Shown here: piece by piece, positions 9,562 through 30,748 of the stretch | Layout of the letters: every line of letters begins with the position of its first letter | How positions within the stretch are numbered: position 1 is the first letter of the stretch | Source of the DNA: Candidatus Woesebacteria bacterium RIFCSPHIGHO2_02_FULL_42_20 | GTDB lineage: Bacteria; Patescibacteriota; Microgenomatia; UBA8517 | NCBI GenBank assembly: GCA_001792535.1 | Contig: MGGS01000003.1 | Span: forward strand, 1 to 35,055 | Length of the DNA: 35,055 nt | Direction of reading: 5' to 3' | Notes under the pieces: model-generated | The model's database searches: none | What the model was told of the DNA's origin: nothing | The model's input: the letters and a program-made list of their open reading frames with translations, nothing else | Position numbers and translations under genes: made by a program

Positions 9562-11186
9562 CAAAATATTATTTGGCAATAATAATTTTGGGATCTATCC
9601 CGGCAATTCTTGCGCTATTTGTCGAGGGTTACTACGGCGCCTCGGATGACTTGCATGTGGCGTGGCTTGGTTTATTCAATGAAACAGTAAAACTCGGCCA
9701 ATTTCCGCCAAGATATGTACCGTCCTTGAGTTTCGGATTTGGCTACCCATTGTTTAATTTTGTCTTTCCGCTGCCTTTTTATATCGGAGAAATTTTTGTC
9801 TTGCTGGGATTCGGGTTAGTGGGAAGTATTAAGTCAGTTTTTGTAGTTAGCTTTGTTGCCTCGAGCATTGTTATGTATAAATTTTTAAGAACGTTGGTAA
9901 AGCCGTTGGTATCGCTTGCTGGCGCTGTTGTTTACCTTTATGCGCCCTATCGTGCTACGGAAGTTTATGTCCGTGGTGCAGTCGGTGAGGCATTAAGTTT
10001 TGTATTTTTGCCGCTTTTATTTTTGGGTTTTGTAAAGATACTGAAAAATGAAACGAAAAAAGGAATTTGCCTTACGGCTTTGGCATTGGCGTTTTTAATT
10101 CTAAGCCACAACATAGTATCGTACATGTTTCTCGGGTTTTTAGTTCTAGCACTTGTTTTTTTCAGGCAAAAATTTGTACAAATTATAACTGCCGGCATCT
10201 TGGGACTTGTGGGTAGCTCTTTTTTTTGGGTCCCGGCTTTGCTTGAATCAAATCTTGTTAAGTACGATACGGTCTTTAGTTACTTCGACCACTTTCCGAC
10301 ACTAAAACAACTTATTACACCGTATTTTGGCTACGGTGCATCAGTCCCCGGACCCGGCGACGGTATGTCTTTTTTCTTGGGGGGAATAAACATTTTGCTG
10401 GTGTTGACTTCGACTTATGTTTTGATTAAGTCTTTCAGAAGAAAACTTGACCTTAGTAAAACATTTTTACTTTTCTCTTTTGCCGCTTTTTTAATCTCGG
10501 TTTTTATGATGAATCACCGCTCGAGCGTAGTTTGGGACGCACTGCCTCTCCTGCCCTATTTTCAATTTCCTTGGAGGTTTTTGACGGCAACAACCTTTTT
10601 TACTACCCTGATGGTTATAAGCTTGTCACGAGTTAAAAAATCTGGCGTACTTGCCTTGTTTATTCTGGTGTTTGTGGTAGTTTTAAATTTTTCCTTTTTT
10701 AAACCCCAAGATAACTTGGGTCGGGGAGATGACTATTATTTGACTAGATACACGACATTAAACGGCACAAGCCCGGAATATAAATCGACAAAAGAGGAGT
10801 ATTTAAGACTTCCTGAAAATAGCGAAGCGAGACCTGCCACGCTGTACCCGGATTTTTATGGCGACAACATCATTGTCTTAAGTAATACTAAGATGAACTT
10901 ATTGGAGTACAAAGCTTTGGTTAAATCAAATGGCGGGGTAGTAAGCGTCAATAAATATTACTTTCCGGGTTGGGAAGTTAATGTGGATGGTCAAAAAGTA
11001 GATATTGTTTCAGGACAGCCATTTGGCCAAATTTCCTTTGATATTCCGGCCGGTGAGCATACACTTCATTATTTTTACAGTGAACCTTTGTATAAACGTC
11101 TGTTAGACGTAGTCTCGTTTGCGACACTTTTGTCCCTTATGTTAATTTTAGTAAGCAAAGATGCTAAAAAAGATAGTCAAAACTAA
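9537..11186 (+). CDS. PF10131-like (PTPS-related) GT-C membrane protein, paralog 2
   Basis: 'ASDDLHVAWLGLFNETVKLGQFPPRYVPSLSFGFGYPLFNFV', 'QFPWRFL', C-terminal 'YYFPGWEVNVDG'. Confidence 0.78.
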   Translation: MEKIEKFVAKYYLAIIILGSIPAILALFVEGYYGASDDLHVAWLGLFNETVKLGQFPPRYVPSLSFGFGYPLFNFVFPLPFYIGEIFVLLGFGLVGSIKSVFVVSFVASSIVMYKFLRTLVKPLVSLAGAVVYLYAPYRATEVYVRGAVGEALSFVFLPLLFLGFVKILKNETKKGICLTALALAFLILSHNIVSYMFLGFLVLALVFFRQKFVQIITAGILGLVGSSFFWVPALLESNLVKYDTVFSYFDHFPTLKQLITPYFGYGASVPGPGDGMSFFLGGINILLVLTSTYVLIKSFRRKLDLSKTFLLFSFAAFLISVFMMNHRSSVVWDALPLLPYFQFPWRFLTATTFFTTLMVISLSRVKKSGVLALFILVFVVVLNFSFFKPQDNLGRGDDYYLTRYTTLNGTSPEYKSTKEEYLRLPENSEARPATLYPDFYGDNIIVLSNTKMNLLEYKALVKSNGGVVSVNKYYFPGWEVNVDGQKVDIVSGQPFGQISFDIPAGEHTLHYFYSEPLYKRLLDVVSFATLLSLMLILVSKDAKKDSQN

Positions 11187-16119: not shown

Positions 16120-17496
16120 TCATAATTTTTCCCCTATTTTTATAAATTTGGCGTCTTCCGTGCTTATCTCATTTAAATTATGCTTATTTTTATAGCTCTC
16201 AACTATCTCTTTTGTTATTTTAAGAATTAATTTATATTGCTTTTCATTTCCAGCTTCATCTCCATGTTCTATTATCAACGAATTTCTGAATTTAGAAACC
16301 TCCCAGACTTTTTTTATGTCAAAAATACCCTTTTGGTCTAGAGCTTTTAAAAGGGTAGCAGATTGCATTAGTCCTATTCTTTCATCTTGTTTTGCTTGAC
16401 CTCCGGTTAATTTTTGCCATTCTTTTGAGTAAAGTGCAACAACTTTCGAAGATAATTTAGACCACTCAATGTTCCATGGATTTATTTTTCTTAATACCAA
16501 GTCCGATTGGAAGATGATATCCATGCATCGATAGAGATAAATGATAGCGAACATAAAACTGTTTTCATCTGCGGCGTGACTTGCCCTAATGTTTAGCTCA
16601 TAAACAAATGAGAGGACGTATTTAGGAGACTTTAACTTGCTAATAAAGTTTGACGGGTTACTTAACGTATTTAAAAATCTTAAATTCTTTTCAACTAAGT
16701 TTACTAATTTGGGATTGAACCGTGAGCAGAGCTCTTTGGCCTCTTGGATAAAAACACTTGCTGCTCTAAATTCGTATTTTTGCCAGTGTAGGTAGCCTTT
16801 GGTGAGAGTTTCCAAAAACAAAACTTGCTCTATTCTCATGGTTCTTCGCTTAATGTTGTCTAGTATTTTGATCACATCCCTGAACATTTGTTTATTAAAT
16901 AGAGAAACAGCTTTCTCGAGTTCCAAATCTCCGTAATATTCAATAGGATCCTTTAAAGATTTGACAACTCTTTGTAAAGGGTCAGCCTGTTTTATATTCA
17001 TGTCGTATTTGCCCCATTCCTGGTATAAAACGCTAAATTCAAAATATCTTGCCACCATAATGAGAGGTGCGCTTAGAGAAGTTGATCCGGAAGATATGTA
17101 TACTGCAGTTTTCGCCAGTCTGTCTTCCTCCCAAATTTCCCGGACTATTTTGTGTACGCTAAACGGGTCGTTTATAACTACTTTATGTACCCTAATCATG
17201 GAAGGTTTTAAATAAGTAAGTTTAGTTAGAGTGTCTAAAGAATCGAAACTCTCTTTTGTTCCTATTAAGAAATGATATTCATCGGCTTCTACTGTTTGGA
17301 TAAGAAGAGCGAGTTTGTCAACTGCTCGACCAAGTGGAACGATGATTCTACTAAATTTTTTATAAAGATCTTTATTTTTGGATAGAGTTGGCAAGATATG
17401 TTTTACCCAATGCTCGTCGGCTTTATTTCTTCCTTTAGTGTTAAGAATTTTGAGCCATTCAGATACAACTGTTTCAGATTGTTTCAGACCTTTCAT
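16120..17496 (-). CDS. CARF-HEPN protein, Csm6/Csx1/TIGR02710-like
   Basis: Rossmann-like N-terminal part with 'AVYISSGSTSLSAPLIMVARYFEFSVLYQEWGKYD' (aa 131-165), 'ELEKAVSLFNKQMFRDVIKIL', 'NIRASHAADENSFMFAIIYLYRCMDIIFQSDLVLRK', C-terminal HEPN R-x6-H 'FRNSLIIEHGD' (R404, H411). Confidence 0.68.
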   Translation of the reverse strand: MKGLKQSETVVSEWLKILNTKGRNKADEHWVKHILPTLSKNKDLYKKFSRIIVPLGRAVDKLALLIQTVEADEYHFLIGTKESFDSLDTLTKLTYLKPSMIRVHKVVINDPFSVHKIVREIWEEDRLAKTAVYISSGSTSLSAPLIMVARYFEFSVLYQEWGKYDMNIKQADPLQRVVKSLKDPIEYYGDLELEKAVSLFNKQMFRDVIKILDNIKRRTMRIEQVLFLETLTKGYLHWQKYEFRAASVFIQEAKELCSRFNPKLVNLVEKNLRFLNTLSNPSNFISKLKSPKYVLSFVYELNIRASHAADENSFMFAIIYLYRCMDIIFQSDLVLRKINPWNIEWSKLSSKVVALYSKEWQKLTGGQAKQDERIGLMQSATLLKALDQKGIFDIKKVWEVSKFRNSLIIEHGDEAGNEKQYKLILKITKEIVESYKNKHNLNEISTEDAKFIKIGEKL

Positions 17497-17503
17497 AATT
17501 GGG

Positions 17504-17509
17504 ATTATA
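17504..17509 (-). promoter_or_regulatory. -10-like TATAAT, 7 nt before ATG of the CARF-HEPN gene
   Basis: Reverse complement reads TATAATCCCAATTATG. Confidence 0.6.
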
Positions 17510-17550
17510 TCAAATTTTGGCTATTTTATTTATAATTATCGATTTCGTGT

Positions 17551-17556
17551 TAAAAT
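17551..17556 (+). promoter_or_regulatory. -10-like TAAAAT, 8 nt before GTG 17565
   Basis: TAAAATTTAGAGCAGTGGTGAAAATC. Confidence 0.5.
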
Positions 17557-17564
17557 TTAGAGCA

Positions 17565-18482
17565 GTGGTGAAAATCAGCGCAATAGTCACAGCAACTCCG
17601 GGTTACGATGACATTGCTAAACTTGAAAAGTGCTTGGAGTCGATTAGGTATTTTGCCGACGAGATCATTTTTGTAATTAACGGGGAATCGGGCGAATTGG
17701 AAAAAGTTGCGGGCAGGTTTAAAGCAATAATATATAATCATAAATTTCTTAATTATGTCGAGCCGCTAAGAAACTTCGGAATAGCGAAAGCGAGTCACGA
17801 GTGGGTTTTGATACTTGATCCGGATGAGTTGCTTGGGAGTGCTTTAATCAAAAAACTCAGGTCGGTAATCAAAGATAGTACTCTAAACTACTGCCTCATT
17901 CCGAGAAAAAATATGGTTTTTGATAGTTGGCTTAAGCACTCACGCTGGTGGCCGGATTTTAATGTGAGGTTTTTTAGAAAAGGTAAAGTTACATGGAGCG
18001 ATGAGATCCACATACCGCCGGCTACCGTTGGTAAAGGTTACGAATTTCCTGTTAAGGAAGAATTTGCGATTAGCCATAATCACTACAATAGCGTTGAGGA
18101 GTATCTTGAAAGGTTGAATAGATATACGTCGGTTCAGGCGGAGGGTAGGATTAGTGAGGGTTACAAATTCAAATGGCAAGACTTGCTCCGTTTTCCGGCA
18201 AGTGAATTTTTGAGTAGGTATTTTGCCGGATTTGGTTACAAGGACGGATTGCATGGTTTGGTGTTGTCCGTGCTTCAGGGTTTTTCCGAATTTGTGGTTT
18301 ATGTTAAGGTTTGGCAAAAAGAGGGCTTTAAACACATAGATGTTGATCCAGCGGAGTTTATAAAGCAGTCTAAAAATCAAATTAAGGAATACAACTGGTG
18401 GTGTATACAAACACTTCTTAAAAGTGCGTCGGTTCCTAAAAAAATACTTCTTAAAACATACCGGAAGTTATTTTTGAGATGA
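17565..18482 (+). CDS. GT2 glycosyltransferase (WaaE/KdtX-like)
   Basis: 'KISAIVTATPGYDDIAKLEKCLESIRYFADEIIFV', 'LDPDELL', 'IPRKNMVFDSWLKHSRWWPDFNVRFFRKG'; start moved from 17499 to GTG 17565/17568 on promoter position and homology. Confidence 0.82.
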   Translation: MVKISAIVTATPGYDDIAKLEKCLESIRYFADEIIFVINGESGELEKVAGRFKAIIYNHKFLNYVEPLRNFGIAKASHEWVLILDPDELLGSALIKKLRSVIKDSTLNYCLIPRKNMVFDSWLKHSRWWPDFNVRFFRKGKVTWSDEIHIPPATVGKGYEFPVKEEFAISHNHYNSVEEYLERLNRYTSVQAEGRISEGYKFKWQDLLRFPASEFLSRYFAGFGYKDGLHGLVLSVLQGFSEFVVYVKVWQKEGFKHIDVDPAEFIKQSKNQIKEYNWWCIQTLLKSASVPKKILLKTYRKLFLR

Positions 18483-28032: not shown

Positions 28033-29721
28033 ATGAAACACAAGACTGTGTTTTTACTTGTCGTCTTGTTAGCTTCAATCTTAAGATTGTATAAACTTGA
28101 TCGTGTCCCCGTTTCGATGTTTGGTGATGAACTTGACGTTGGTTACCATGCCTATTCCATACTCAAAACAGGCCGGGATTACCAAGGTAACTTTATGCCT
28201 TTGCATTTCCATTCACTGGCTGAATGGCGGACTCCATTGTATCTTTATTCCACCGTTCCCACAGTTGCGATATTCGGAATTAGCCCTTACGGCGTGAGGT
28301 TGCCGGCAGCTTTTTTTGGCATAGCAGGGGTGATTGCGGTTTATTTGTTGGTCAAAAAAGTAACAAAGACGAAGCGGCTGGCAATGTTTGCGGCTTTTCT
28401 TTTAACAGTTTCCCCGTGGCATATTCAGTATTCGAGAGCGGCTTTTGAAGTAACCGAGATGCTATTTTTTCTTTTAATGGCTTTACTTTTTTACTTTAAA
28501 GCAAGGGAAAAGTCAAAGTACTTGTGGGTCGCGGTGTTTTTCGCGATGCTTATGCCCTGGGTCTATAGCACTTCTAAGTTGTATGTTCCCCTTGTGTTAC
28601 TTACAGCAATTTTTATTTGGAGAAAATGGCTAGCATTGATACCGTTGAAGCACAAAATTTTGGCTGTTGGCACTGGTCTTGTTTTGGGATTGCCACTAAT
28701 TGTCGTTACTTTAACAGGCGAGGGTAGCCAGAGGTTCGGCTATGTGAGTGTTTTCAGTGACCCGACTGTTGTTCCCGAAGTCGGAGTAGACAGGTGGGAA
28801 GATGCCAAATCAAGAGGTGAAACTGGCGAAGGCTTGTCTCCGGCAATTGCCGACAGGCTTATTCACAACAAATATACAGTCTGGCTCAAGGTCATAACAA
28901 ATAACTATTTGCAGTCTTTTTCTACAGATTTTTTATTTATGAATGGTGACCCCAATCCAAGGCATTCCATAGACGGGATAGGGGAATTTTATAGGATAGA
29001 CTCGATAATGTTGTTGGTTGGAATAATAGTCTTTTTGAAGTCTAAATTGGAGATTAAGGTCAAAACGTTTTTAGTCATTTTGTTATTACTTTCTCCAATA
29101 TCGGCTGCAATTACCAGAGACGGCGGCAATCACGCGACCCGACTCATTCTAATGCTGCCATTTATTGTTCTGCTTGTTTCCTACGGCTTAAATTGGCTAA
29201 GAAAACATAAAACAGCATTTGTTATGTGTTGTTTGCTGTATGTTGTTAACTTTATTTTTTACCAGCATAATTATTGGGTTCATAACCCGTATCAGTCGGA
29301 GAGATGGTGGCATGCCGGTTGGGGAGAGGCGATTCAATTGATTAAACAAGATGAGAAGAATTATGACAAAGTGATAATTTCAATGGCCGGCGAACCGGCG
29401 TGGATATTTTTTGCGGCCTACATGGAATATCCTCCTGAAGCTTGGCAGGAAAACTTTCCAATAGACAACAAGACATCCCTGCGCGGGTTTGGCGATGTAT
29501 CTCATATAGCCAAGTATTATTTCGGTACAGCGAACGTCGAGGGCGGAATATATTCACTACCTAGTCTTATTGACGGTAAAACTTTGTATCTTGCCAATGC
29601 AAAAGAAGTTGGAGGAAATTTGATTAGAGAGCCAGATAAGACCCCGATTGGCTTAAAGTTAATTGACTCGGTAGCATTTCCTTCCGGCGAGCCGGCTTTT
29701 TACTTATTTACAAAATCATGA
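28033..29721 (+). CDS. GT-C ArnT/PMT-like glycosyltransferase
   Basis: 'MFGDELDVGYHAYSILKTGRDYQGNFMPLHFHSLAEWRTPLYLY', 'FSTDFLFMNGDPNPRHSIDG'. Confidence 0.85.
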   Translation: MKHKTVFLLVVLLASILRLYKLDRVPVSMFGDELDVGYHAYSILKTGRDYQGNFMPLHFHSLAEWRTPLYLYSTVPTVAIFGISPYGVRLPAAFFGIAGVIAVYLLVKKVTKTKRLAMFAAFLLTVSPWHIQYSRAAFEVTEMLFFLLMALLFYFKAREKSKYLWVAVFFAMLMPWVYSTSKLYVPLVLLTAIFIWRKWLALIPLKHKILAVGTGLVLGLPLIVVTLTGEGSQRFGYVSVFSDPTVVPEVGVDRWEDAKSRGETGEGLSPAIADRLIHNKYTVWLKVITNNYLQSFSTDFLFMNGDPNPRHSIDGIGEFYRIDSIMLLVGIIVFLKSKLEIKVKTFLVILLLLSPISAAITRDGGNHATRLILMLPFIVLLVSYGLNWLRKHKTAFVMCCLLYVVNFIFYQHNYWVHNPYQSERWWHAGWGEAIQLIKQDEKNYDKVIISMAGEPAWIFFAAYMEYPPEAWQENFPIDNKTSLRGFGDVSHIAKYYFGTANVEGGIYSLPSLIDGKTLYLANAKEVGGNLIREPDKTPIGLKLIDSVAFPSGEPAFYLFTKS

Positions 29722-30356
29722 ATAAGGTCGATATAGTTGTTAACGAAGCTAAAAAATTATTGAAAGAGAATCCGTTTGATGTTGGTCATGATTTGAGTCA
29801 CCACACAATGGTTTGGAGATTGGCTAAACGAATCACTAAAAATATAGATGAAAAAATTGATATGGATGCACTTAAAACTGCATGTTTGTGGCATGATGTG
29901 GTTGTTACCAAGTTGCCAACTAAAGACGTATTACTGAAAACAAAAATGACAGATGACTCTTTAGAGTATTTGGTTGTTCTCTTAAAAAAATATAAATTTA
30001 GTAAAGAGTTTATAAATAAAGTTGTTATAGCAAAAAAATACCACCATTTTGATGAAAAGCCGAGAAGTGTAGAAGGTAAAATTTTGTGGGATGCAGATAA
30101 GCTTGGTGTTTTAGGTTTGAACAGGTGGCAGAGATTTATTCAGGCCGAGAAAAACGGGAAAATTCCAAAATCTTTTGTTAGCTACTATGCAAGCACGTTT
30201 AAAGAAAAGTACTTAAAAACAATGCGTAACAGGTTACATTTTAAATACAGCAAAATCTTGCATGATGAAATGATTCTAAGACTGATTAAGAGTAAAGAGG
30301 GAAGGGCAACCGCAAAAAGGTTTAGCTGGGATTTGAAATCAGCCTTACCAAAATAA
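29718..30356 (+). CDS. HD-domain phosphohydrolase
   Basis: 'VGHDLSHHTMVWRLAKRI', 'ACLWHDVVV', 'LWDADKLGVLG'. Confidence 0.8.
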   Translation: MNKVDIVVNEAKKLLKENPFDVGHDLSHHTMVWRLAKRITKNIDEKIDMDALKTACLWHDVVVTKLPTKDVLLKTKMTDDSLEYLVVLLKKYKFSKEFINKVVIAKKYHHFDEKPRSVEGKILWDADKLGVLGLNRWQRFIQAEKNGKIPKSFVSYYASTFKEKYLKTMRNRLHFKYSKILHDEMILRLIKSKEGRATAKRFSWDLKSALPK

Positions 30357-30748
30357 TGTTCAAAGCCCCTAAAAATACATCTATATTTAAAAAAGAACCA
30401 AAAAATGACAAATATGTCATTCAGTTTGCTCCTGAATTATGCAGGTTTATTAGAGAAAGAAAAAAATGTCAAACTTTTAGGTATGGAGATAAGTATGATT
30501 ATCTGAAAGTTGGGGACAACGTTAAAATTCGGAACGTGATAACAAAAGGAATAATTGGAAAAGCAATAATAACAGATAAAGCTTATAAAATATTTTCAAA
30601 ATTACCGTATAACAATCTTGGTAGTCATGAATCATACAGCAGTAAAGAGCACCAGAAAAAAGTTTTAAGTGGTTATTACACGTACATCGGTCGGGAAATC
30701 TGCGACGACGACCCATTTATAATTTTTGATTTTAAATTAGTTAAATAG
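30356..30748 (+). CDS. ASCH-domain-like protein
   Basis: 'FIRERKKCQTFRYGDKYDYLKVGDNVKIRN' PUA-like/ASCH pattern. Confidence 0.65.
   Translation: MFKAPKNTSIFKKEPKNDKYVIQFAPELCRFIRERKKCQTFRYGDKYDYLKVGDNVKIRNVITKGIIGKAIITDKAYKIFSKLPYNNLGSHESYSSKEHQKKVLSGYYTYIGREICDDDPFIIFDFKLVK

Follow-up and report, generated by a model that had tools for sequence, protein, structure and literature searches.

The window, by which we mean the whole 35,055-nucleotide stretch of DNA that was analysed, is a complete contig (C3) of a 1.08-Mb genome that comprises 18 contigs, is 98.26% complete and comes from a member of the candidate phyla radiation (CPR). A single intact open reading frame (ORF) on the minus strand encodes a protein of 458 amino acids, with its ATG at 17496 and its stop codon at 16120-16122. 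This is exactly the span 16120-17496 named in the original prediction, and every peptide quoted there (YISSGSTSLSAPLIMVA, from residue 133; ELEKAVSLFNKQMFRDVIKIL; IRASHAADENSFMFAIIYLYRCMDIIFQSDLVLRK; and RNSLIIEHG, with R404 and H411) was found in the translation. The surrounding locus is a glycan locus, as had been proposed, with PMT-like enzymes, GT2, GT1, a polysaccharide flippase-like protein and YfhO-like proteins as neighbours; these genes are tightly packed on both sides, and 14 bp lie between the gene and the stop codon of its left neighbour. The GC content of the gene was 34.5%, compared to 37-45% for most ORFs of the contig, and its GC3 of 32% was below that of nearly all long ORFs of the contig. 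The features described below are as follows.

16120-17496, minus strand: orphan CARF-6H-HEPN protein of the TIGR02710/Csm6-Csx1 kind, 458 aa (profile matches, AlphaFold, Foldseek)
17359-17496, minus strand: N-terminal extension, residues 1-46, two low-confidence helices (model)
16957-17358, minus strand: CARF Rossmann domain, residues 47-180 (model in which strands alternate with helices; Foldseek hits on TtCsm6 and Cam1 CARF)
17068-17100, minus strand: CARF motif II, YISSGSTSLSA, residues 133-143, with Thr139 at the Lys/Arg position (alignment of 79 relatives)
16663-16947, minus strand: 6H helical linker, residues 184-278 (Pfam Csm6_6H, model)
16183-16626, minus strand: HEPN ribonuclease domain, residues 291-438, helical (Pfam Cas_Cas02710, model, Foldseek)
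16264-16287, minus strand: catalytic motif R404-N405-x5-H411 of the HEPN domain (its R, N and H occur in every homolog covering the site, 77-78 relatives)
17504-17512, minus strand: candidate extended -10 element TGATATAAT, 7 nt before the ATG (perfect TGnTATAAT; kept as TGGTATAAT, likewise 7 nt from the ATG, in the sister species)
17170-17562: block 96.5% DNA-identical to the sister genome G384 (BLAST block 17170-17567)

The best library match was the PADLOC family CARF1--CARF_HEPN (PDLC01801; 2.2e-43, residues 41-453), followed by PADLOC Csx1 (8.8e-38). The linker matched Pfam Csm6_6H (PF22205) above its cut-off (39.3 bits against 27.6, E 7e-10), while Pfam Cas_Cas02710 HEPN fell marginally below its gathering cut-off of 27 (26.5 bits, E 6.1e-6) and NCBIfam TIGR02710 scored 47.1 bits (E 1.6e-12), below its equivalog cut-off of 83.9 bits. 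By sequence comparison the nearest solved structures were those of Thermus thermophilus Csm6 (TtCsm6, TTHB152; PDB 5fsh, 8jbb, 8jbc, 8jh1). An AlphaFold model built with 77 relatives as input had a mean pLDDT of 86.3 and a pTM of 0.77; within the CARF domain pLDDT stayed near 90 through residue 160 and dropped to about 70 in the loop 161-180. Foldseek comparison of this model with the PDB returned TtCsm6 for all top matches over the whole length (E 4e-17 to 5e-14), then Enterococcus Csm6 and the Cam1 CARF domain, and every one of the 19 PDB matches below 1e-3 was Csm6 or Cam1 CARF. TM-scores were moderate (at most 0.60), in keeping with the flexibility of a multidomain monomer. A CARF Rossmann domain is thus followed in a single chain by a HEPN fold that contains R404 and H411, as in the broad Csm6/Csx1 class, and the predicted order of CARF, helical linker and HEPN was borne out by the profile matches, the model and the whole-length fold match. 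The PADLOC, TIGR02710, Csm6_6H and TtCsm6 fold matches lie well outside what chance would give, and the assignment of fold and family is settled. The protein shares with TtCsm6 the CARF-6H/HTH-HEPN order, an N-terminal extension (one of similar length also precedes CARF in a Meiothermus relative, L017) and the R-N-x5-6-H site, at 18% sequence identity.

The putative effector site is complete. R404, N405 and H411 form the R-x4-6-H motif of HEPN ribonucleases, remain intact, and are the counterparts of TtCsm6 R415, N416 and H422, mutation of any one of which kills activity (PMC10897365). All six family-invariant residues were kept. Other HEPN positions differ from the relatives (R307H, R308A, D315M, D316F), and residue 326 is Asp rather than the invariant Glu, in the region of TtCsm6 E332, which holds the Arg in the off state. 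Strongly conserved positions were retained at 2 of 10 sites in CARF and 12 of 23 in HEPN, which is not a significant difference (Fisher p 0.13), and the idea that CARF had eroded significantly more than HEPN was dropped. The relatives had been fetched using a pattern from the HEPN domain, which by itself accounts for some of the conservation seen there. Judged by its sequence, the whole protein is diverged, not CARF alone.

The CARF pocket told a different story from the catalytic site. The original prediction placed a ligand loop in the N-terminal region and the peptide is indeed there, from residue 133, but it had overlooked that the basic residue of the loop is missing: the loop reads SSGSTSL instead of TSGTKSM, and SSGST with T139 departs from the motif II pattern [ST]-x-G-[TS]-[KR]. 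At the position facing T139 all 79 aligned relatives are basic (Lys in 74, Arg in 5). The same relatives carry an acidic residue or Asn at 133, Thr or Ser at 135 and 138, an invariant Met at 141 and Arg or Lys at 164, where the present protein has Tyr133, Ser135, Ser138, Leu141 and Tyr164. In TtCsm6 the counterpart of T139 is K137, and the K137A variant loses both cA4 binding and RNase activation (PMC10897365). The TtCsm6 residues for cA4 binding and ring-nuclease activity are likewise replaced in the phmmer alignment: T59 and S60, for which T59A/S60A loses RNase activity (PMC10897365), correspond to R57 and A58, N164 to W161, R173 to Q170 and E179 to R176. The adenine side is kept, with T80, E82 and Y158 matching TtCsm6 T81, E83 and Y161 (the T-x-E and the loop Tyr), and K169 matches TtCsm6 R172. 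We therefore dropped the view that the whole ligand pocket is gone and consider the pocket remodelled on its phosphate and cleavage side. Because the K137 equivalent and other phosphate-side contacts have been replaced, canonical activation of this CARF-HEPN protein by cyclic oligoadenylate (cOA) appears doubtful, and its description as cyclic-nucleotide-responsive is not supported as worded, given Thr139 and the replaced motif-I and mobile-loop residues. R57 or K169 could substitute for the lost Lys.

Comparison with known members placed these replacements in context. The protein is homologous to TIGR02710 and PADLOC CARF1--CARF_HEPN over residues 41-453 and has the catalytic and several structural residues in common with them, but lacks the GTK motif. 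In the tree its end branch was 2.77, against a median of 0.4; its placement beside the Meiothermus protein was not used, as long branches were flagged as meeting. A TIGR02710 protein on a Rubrobacter radiotolerans plasmid (L016/L107, record 9716-10945) has also exchanged the loop Lys for Thr (TGGTTPM), but sits in a locus annotated cas2, cas4, cas7d and cas6, so loss of the Lys alone is no proof of a role outside CRISPR. That Rubrobacter locus may be without a cyclase-active Cas10. Methanospirillum-type CARF-HEPN proteins (L040, L042, L048, L049, L050) look like local orphans in a crude scan of their fetched flanks, which showed no cas gene or array; they differ in keeping a basic residue in the loop, where Lys has become Arg (SGTREM). 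This clade is a possible archaeal orphan lineage. Two further TIGR02710 proteins are not close relatives. One, canonical and grouping with archaeal sequences, is encoded by another genome of this family (G385:C27, L098); the other (G642, L100) is divergent and belongs to a RAMP-like locus from the same class. The former lies on a 2.3-kb stretch with no other long ORF, and transfer or contamination is possible there. No relatives came from single-protein scans of genome contigs and viral contigs or from tblastn searches of plasmids and phages, and a first alignment scan of viral contigs gave no confirmed relative.

Effectors ancillary to type III systems are encoded alongside type III CRISPR-Cas, unlike the present gene and in a further difference from TtCsm6. 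Searches of the 18 contigs found no RAMP/Cas7-like gene, no Cas1, no Cas10 palm and no GGDEF gene, and each of the same searches detected its target in control genomes; no repeat-spacer array lies within the window. The earlier remark that no array is visible was upheld for the window, and the RAMP, Cas1 and Cas10 searches showed no type III system elsewhere in the genome that would remove the orphan status. mCpol (PF18182), expected of a Panoptes system, was not detected in the genome at E <= 10, in a search where the controls gave matches, none of them above the cut-off; CD-NTase/SMODS (PF18144), expected of CBASS, was not detected at E <= 10, with two controls above the cut-off. The Cas10 palm, mCpol, CD-NTase and GGDEF searches thus gave no candidate in the genome for a local cyclase that would make the ligand. 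The orphan status is supported: the tested cas and cyclase families are absent from a 98%-complete genome. In public genomes, a crude scan of the fetched flanks showed cas genes or an array for 65 of 80 relatives and neither for the other 15, nine of which have more than 9 kb of sequence. Orphans therefore occur in the family, while most of its members are CRISPR-linked.

Among hundreds of members of the class, close copies were confined to the genome of one sister species, G384. There the gene is a fragment of its first 327 bp, located at the end of a contig beside the same GT2 gene, on the same side and in the same orientation. The original prediction asked whether the gene recurs in CPR glycan loci; it does so in this one fragment, and no recurrence was seen in glycan loci of other class members. 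Between the contig end and a point about 66 bp upstream of the ATG, DNA identity to G384 was 96.5%; through the next genes it was about 65%. Such a sharp break is explained by recent transfer or recombination. A 24-bp identical stretch sits at the break, so the contig end could alternatively be a chimera. Together with the lower GC and the sister-only close matches, the break counts for horizontal movement, and the gene has probably moved recently. Eight of the 109 common codons differ, six of them changing the amino acid and two silent, which does not demonstrate purifying selection. The extended -10 element, whose pattern was chosen post hoc with a chance expectation of 0.04 in the window, suggests that the gene has a private promoter and may produce a leaderless mRNA. 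In its longest reading, the GT2 gene begins at TTG 17499 and overlaps this promoter region; its true start may be GTG 17565, as the copy in the sister species suggests. Elsewhere in the locus, a low-GC pair of genes at 29718-30748 (33% and 30%) encodes an HD-domain phosphohydrolase together with a protein of 130 aa that is ASCH-like by eye, with no Pfam, PADLOC or NCBIfam match. The pair is missing between the matching G384 genes (L007 17453-19147 and 19355-19990) and would therefore be a second small insertion in the locus.

The reading we prefer, while holding it tentatively at somewhat under even odds, is that a horizontally acquired Csm6-type RNase has been kept without CRISPR, its sensor rebuilt for another signal or another form of gating. 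Its main rival is decay after CRISPR loss, in which an effector that came from a type III locus is no longer under selection and is drifting toward loss, the CARF pocket first and with the HEPN site still readable. The lost CARF contacts, the long end branch, the many substitutions at strongly conserved positions of either domain, the excess of amino-acid-changing over silent codon differences from the sister and the lack of partner genes in the genome would all fit such a relic. Against it stand the intact 458-residue frame with its full catalytic triad and all family-invariant residues, the -10 element conserved in the sister and the confident predicted fold of the whole protein. Small genomes of the CPR kind also tend to shed useless genes. 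On balance we regard decay as rather unlikely. An ordinary cOA-activated Csx1/Csm6 protein, its signal made in trans by an invading element, a host cell to which the bacterium attaches or a type III system in the portion that the assembly lacks, would account for the whole-length similarity to TtCsm6 and the retained adenine-side residues, and the genome is indeed short of 100% complete. This is a less likely explanation still, because the Lys is lost that is Lys or Arg in every aligned relative and whose alanine substitution in TtCsm6 abolishes binding and activation, and the 18 contigs yielded no RAMP, Cas1 or Cas10.

The assembly and the setting invite two other explanations. The gene, or its sister copy, could have been misjoined to the locus by assembly or binning, as might be suspected from a sister fragment lying exactly at a contig end, an identical junction stretch that could seed a chimera and the low GC. 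We judge such an artefact very improbable: the gene lies mid-contig here with tightly packed glycan genes on both sides, two assemblies place it in the same orientation and at a matching distance from the GT2 gene, and the copies differ at 3.5% of sites and so do not derive from the same reads. The position inside a long polysaccharide locus might instead point to a regulator that works with the surrounding glycan genes, for example by cutting their mRNA. We found no support for tying the RNase to glycan control and give this the least credence of all, as the gene is on the opposite strand with its own promoter-like element, does not recur in glycan loci elsewhere in the class, and has a left neighbour for which no homolog was found in the sister genome (a query without a positive control).

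Retention of a rebuilt Csm6-type RNase is anchored in the fold, the domain order, the catalytic residues, the sensor replacements and the lack of any tested cas or cyclase family. The long end branch, which would also fit decay, counts for this reading too. In this scenario the gene would have arrived horizontally on its own, apparently bringing a promoter with it, and would have been retained although no CRISPR system accompanies it. On the model of TtCsm6, the protein would dimerise and its CARF domain would gate a composite HEPN site predicted to cut single-stranded RNA, slowing or stopping growth. The remodelled CARF domain may answer a ligand other than a canonical cyclic oligoadenylate, or be gated otherwise; since T80, E82 and Y158 are kept, an adenine-bearing nucleotide is possible as ligand. 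The probable role would be anti-phage or stress dormancy. A more far-reaching version is rather unlikely: here the RNase would have left CRISPR altogether, its CARF domain rebuilt to read a different, Cas10-independent nucleotide or other signal, and would pass from one species to another as a single-gene cassette for dormancy or defence.

Outside CRISPR-Cas, CARF homologs are already known in abundance (PMC12669027), so being an orphan is no novelty by itself; the novelty lies in its coming together with a rebuilt pocket and what looks like recent movement. CARF-HEPN proteins are usually interpreted as readouts of Cas10 signalling. With no Cas10 or known cyclase found in a nearly complete genome, a replaced loop Lys and a complete RNase site, this protein would offer a clean test of whether CARF effectors can be re-tuned to other signals.
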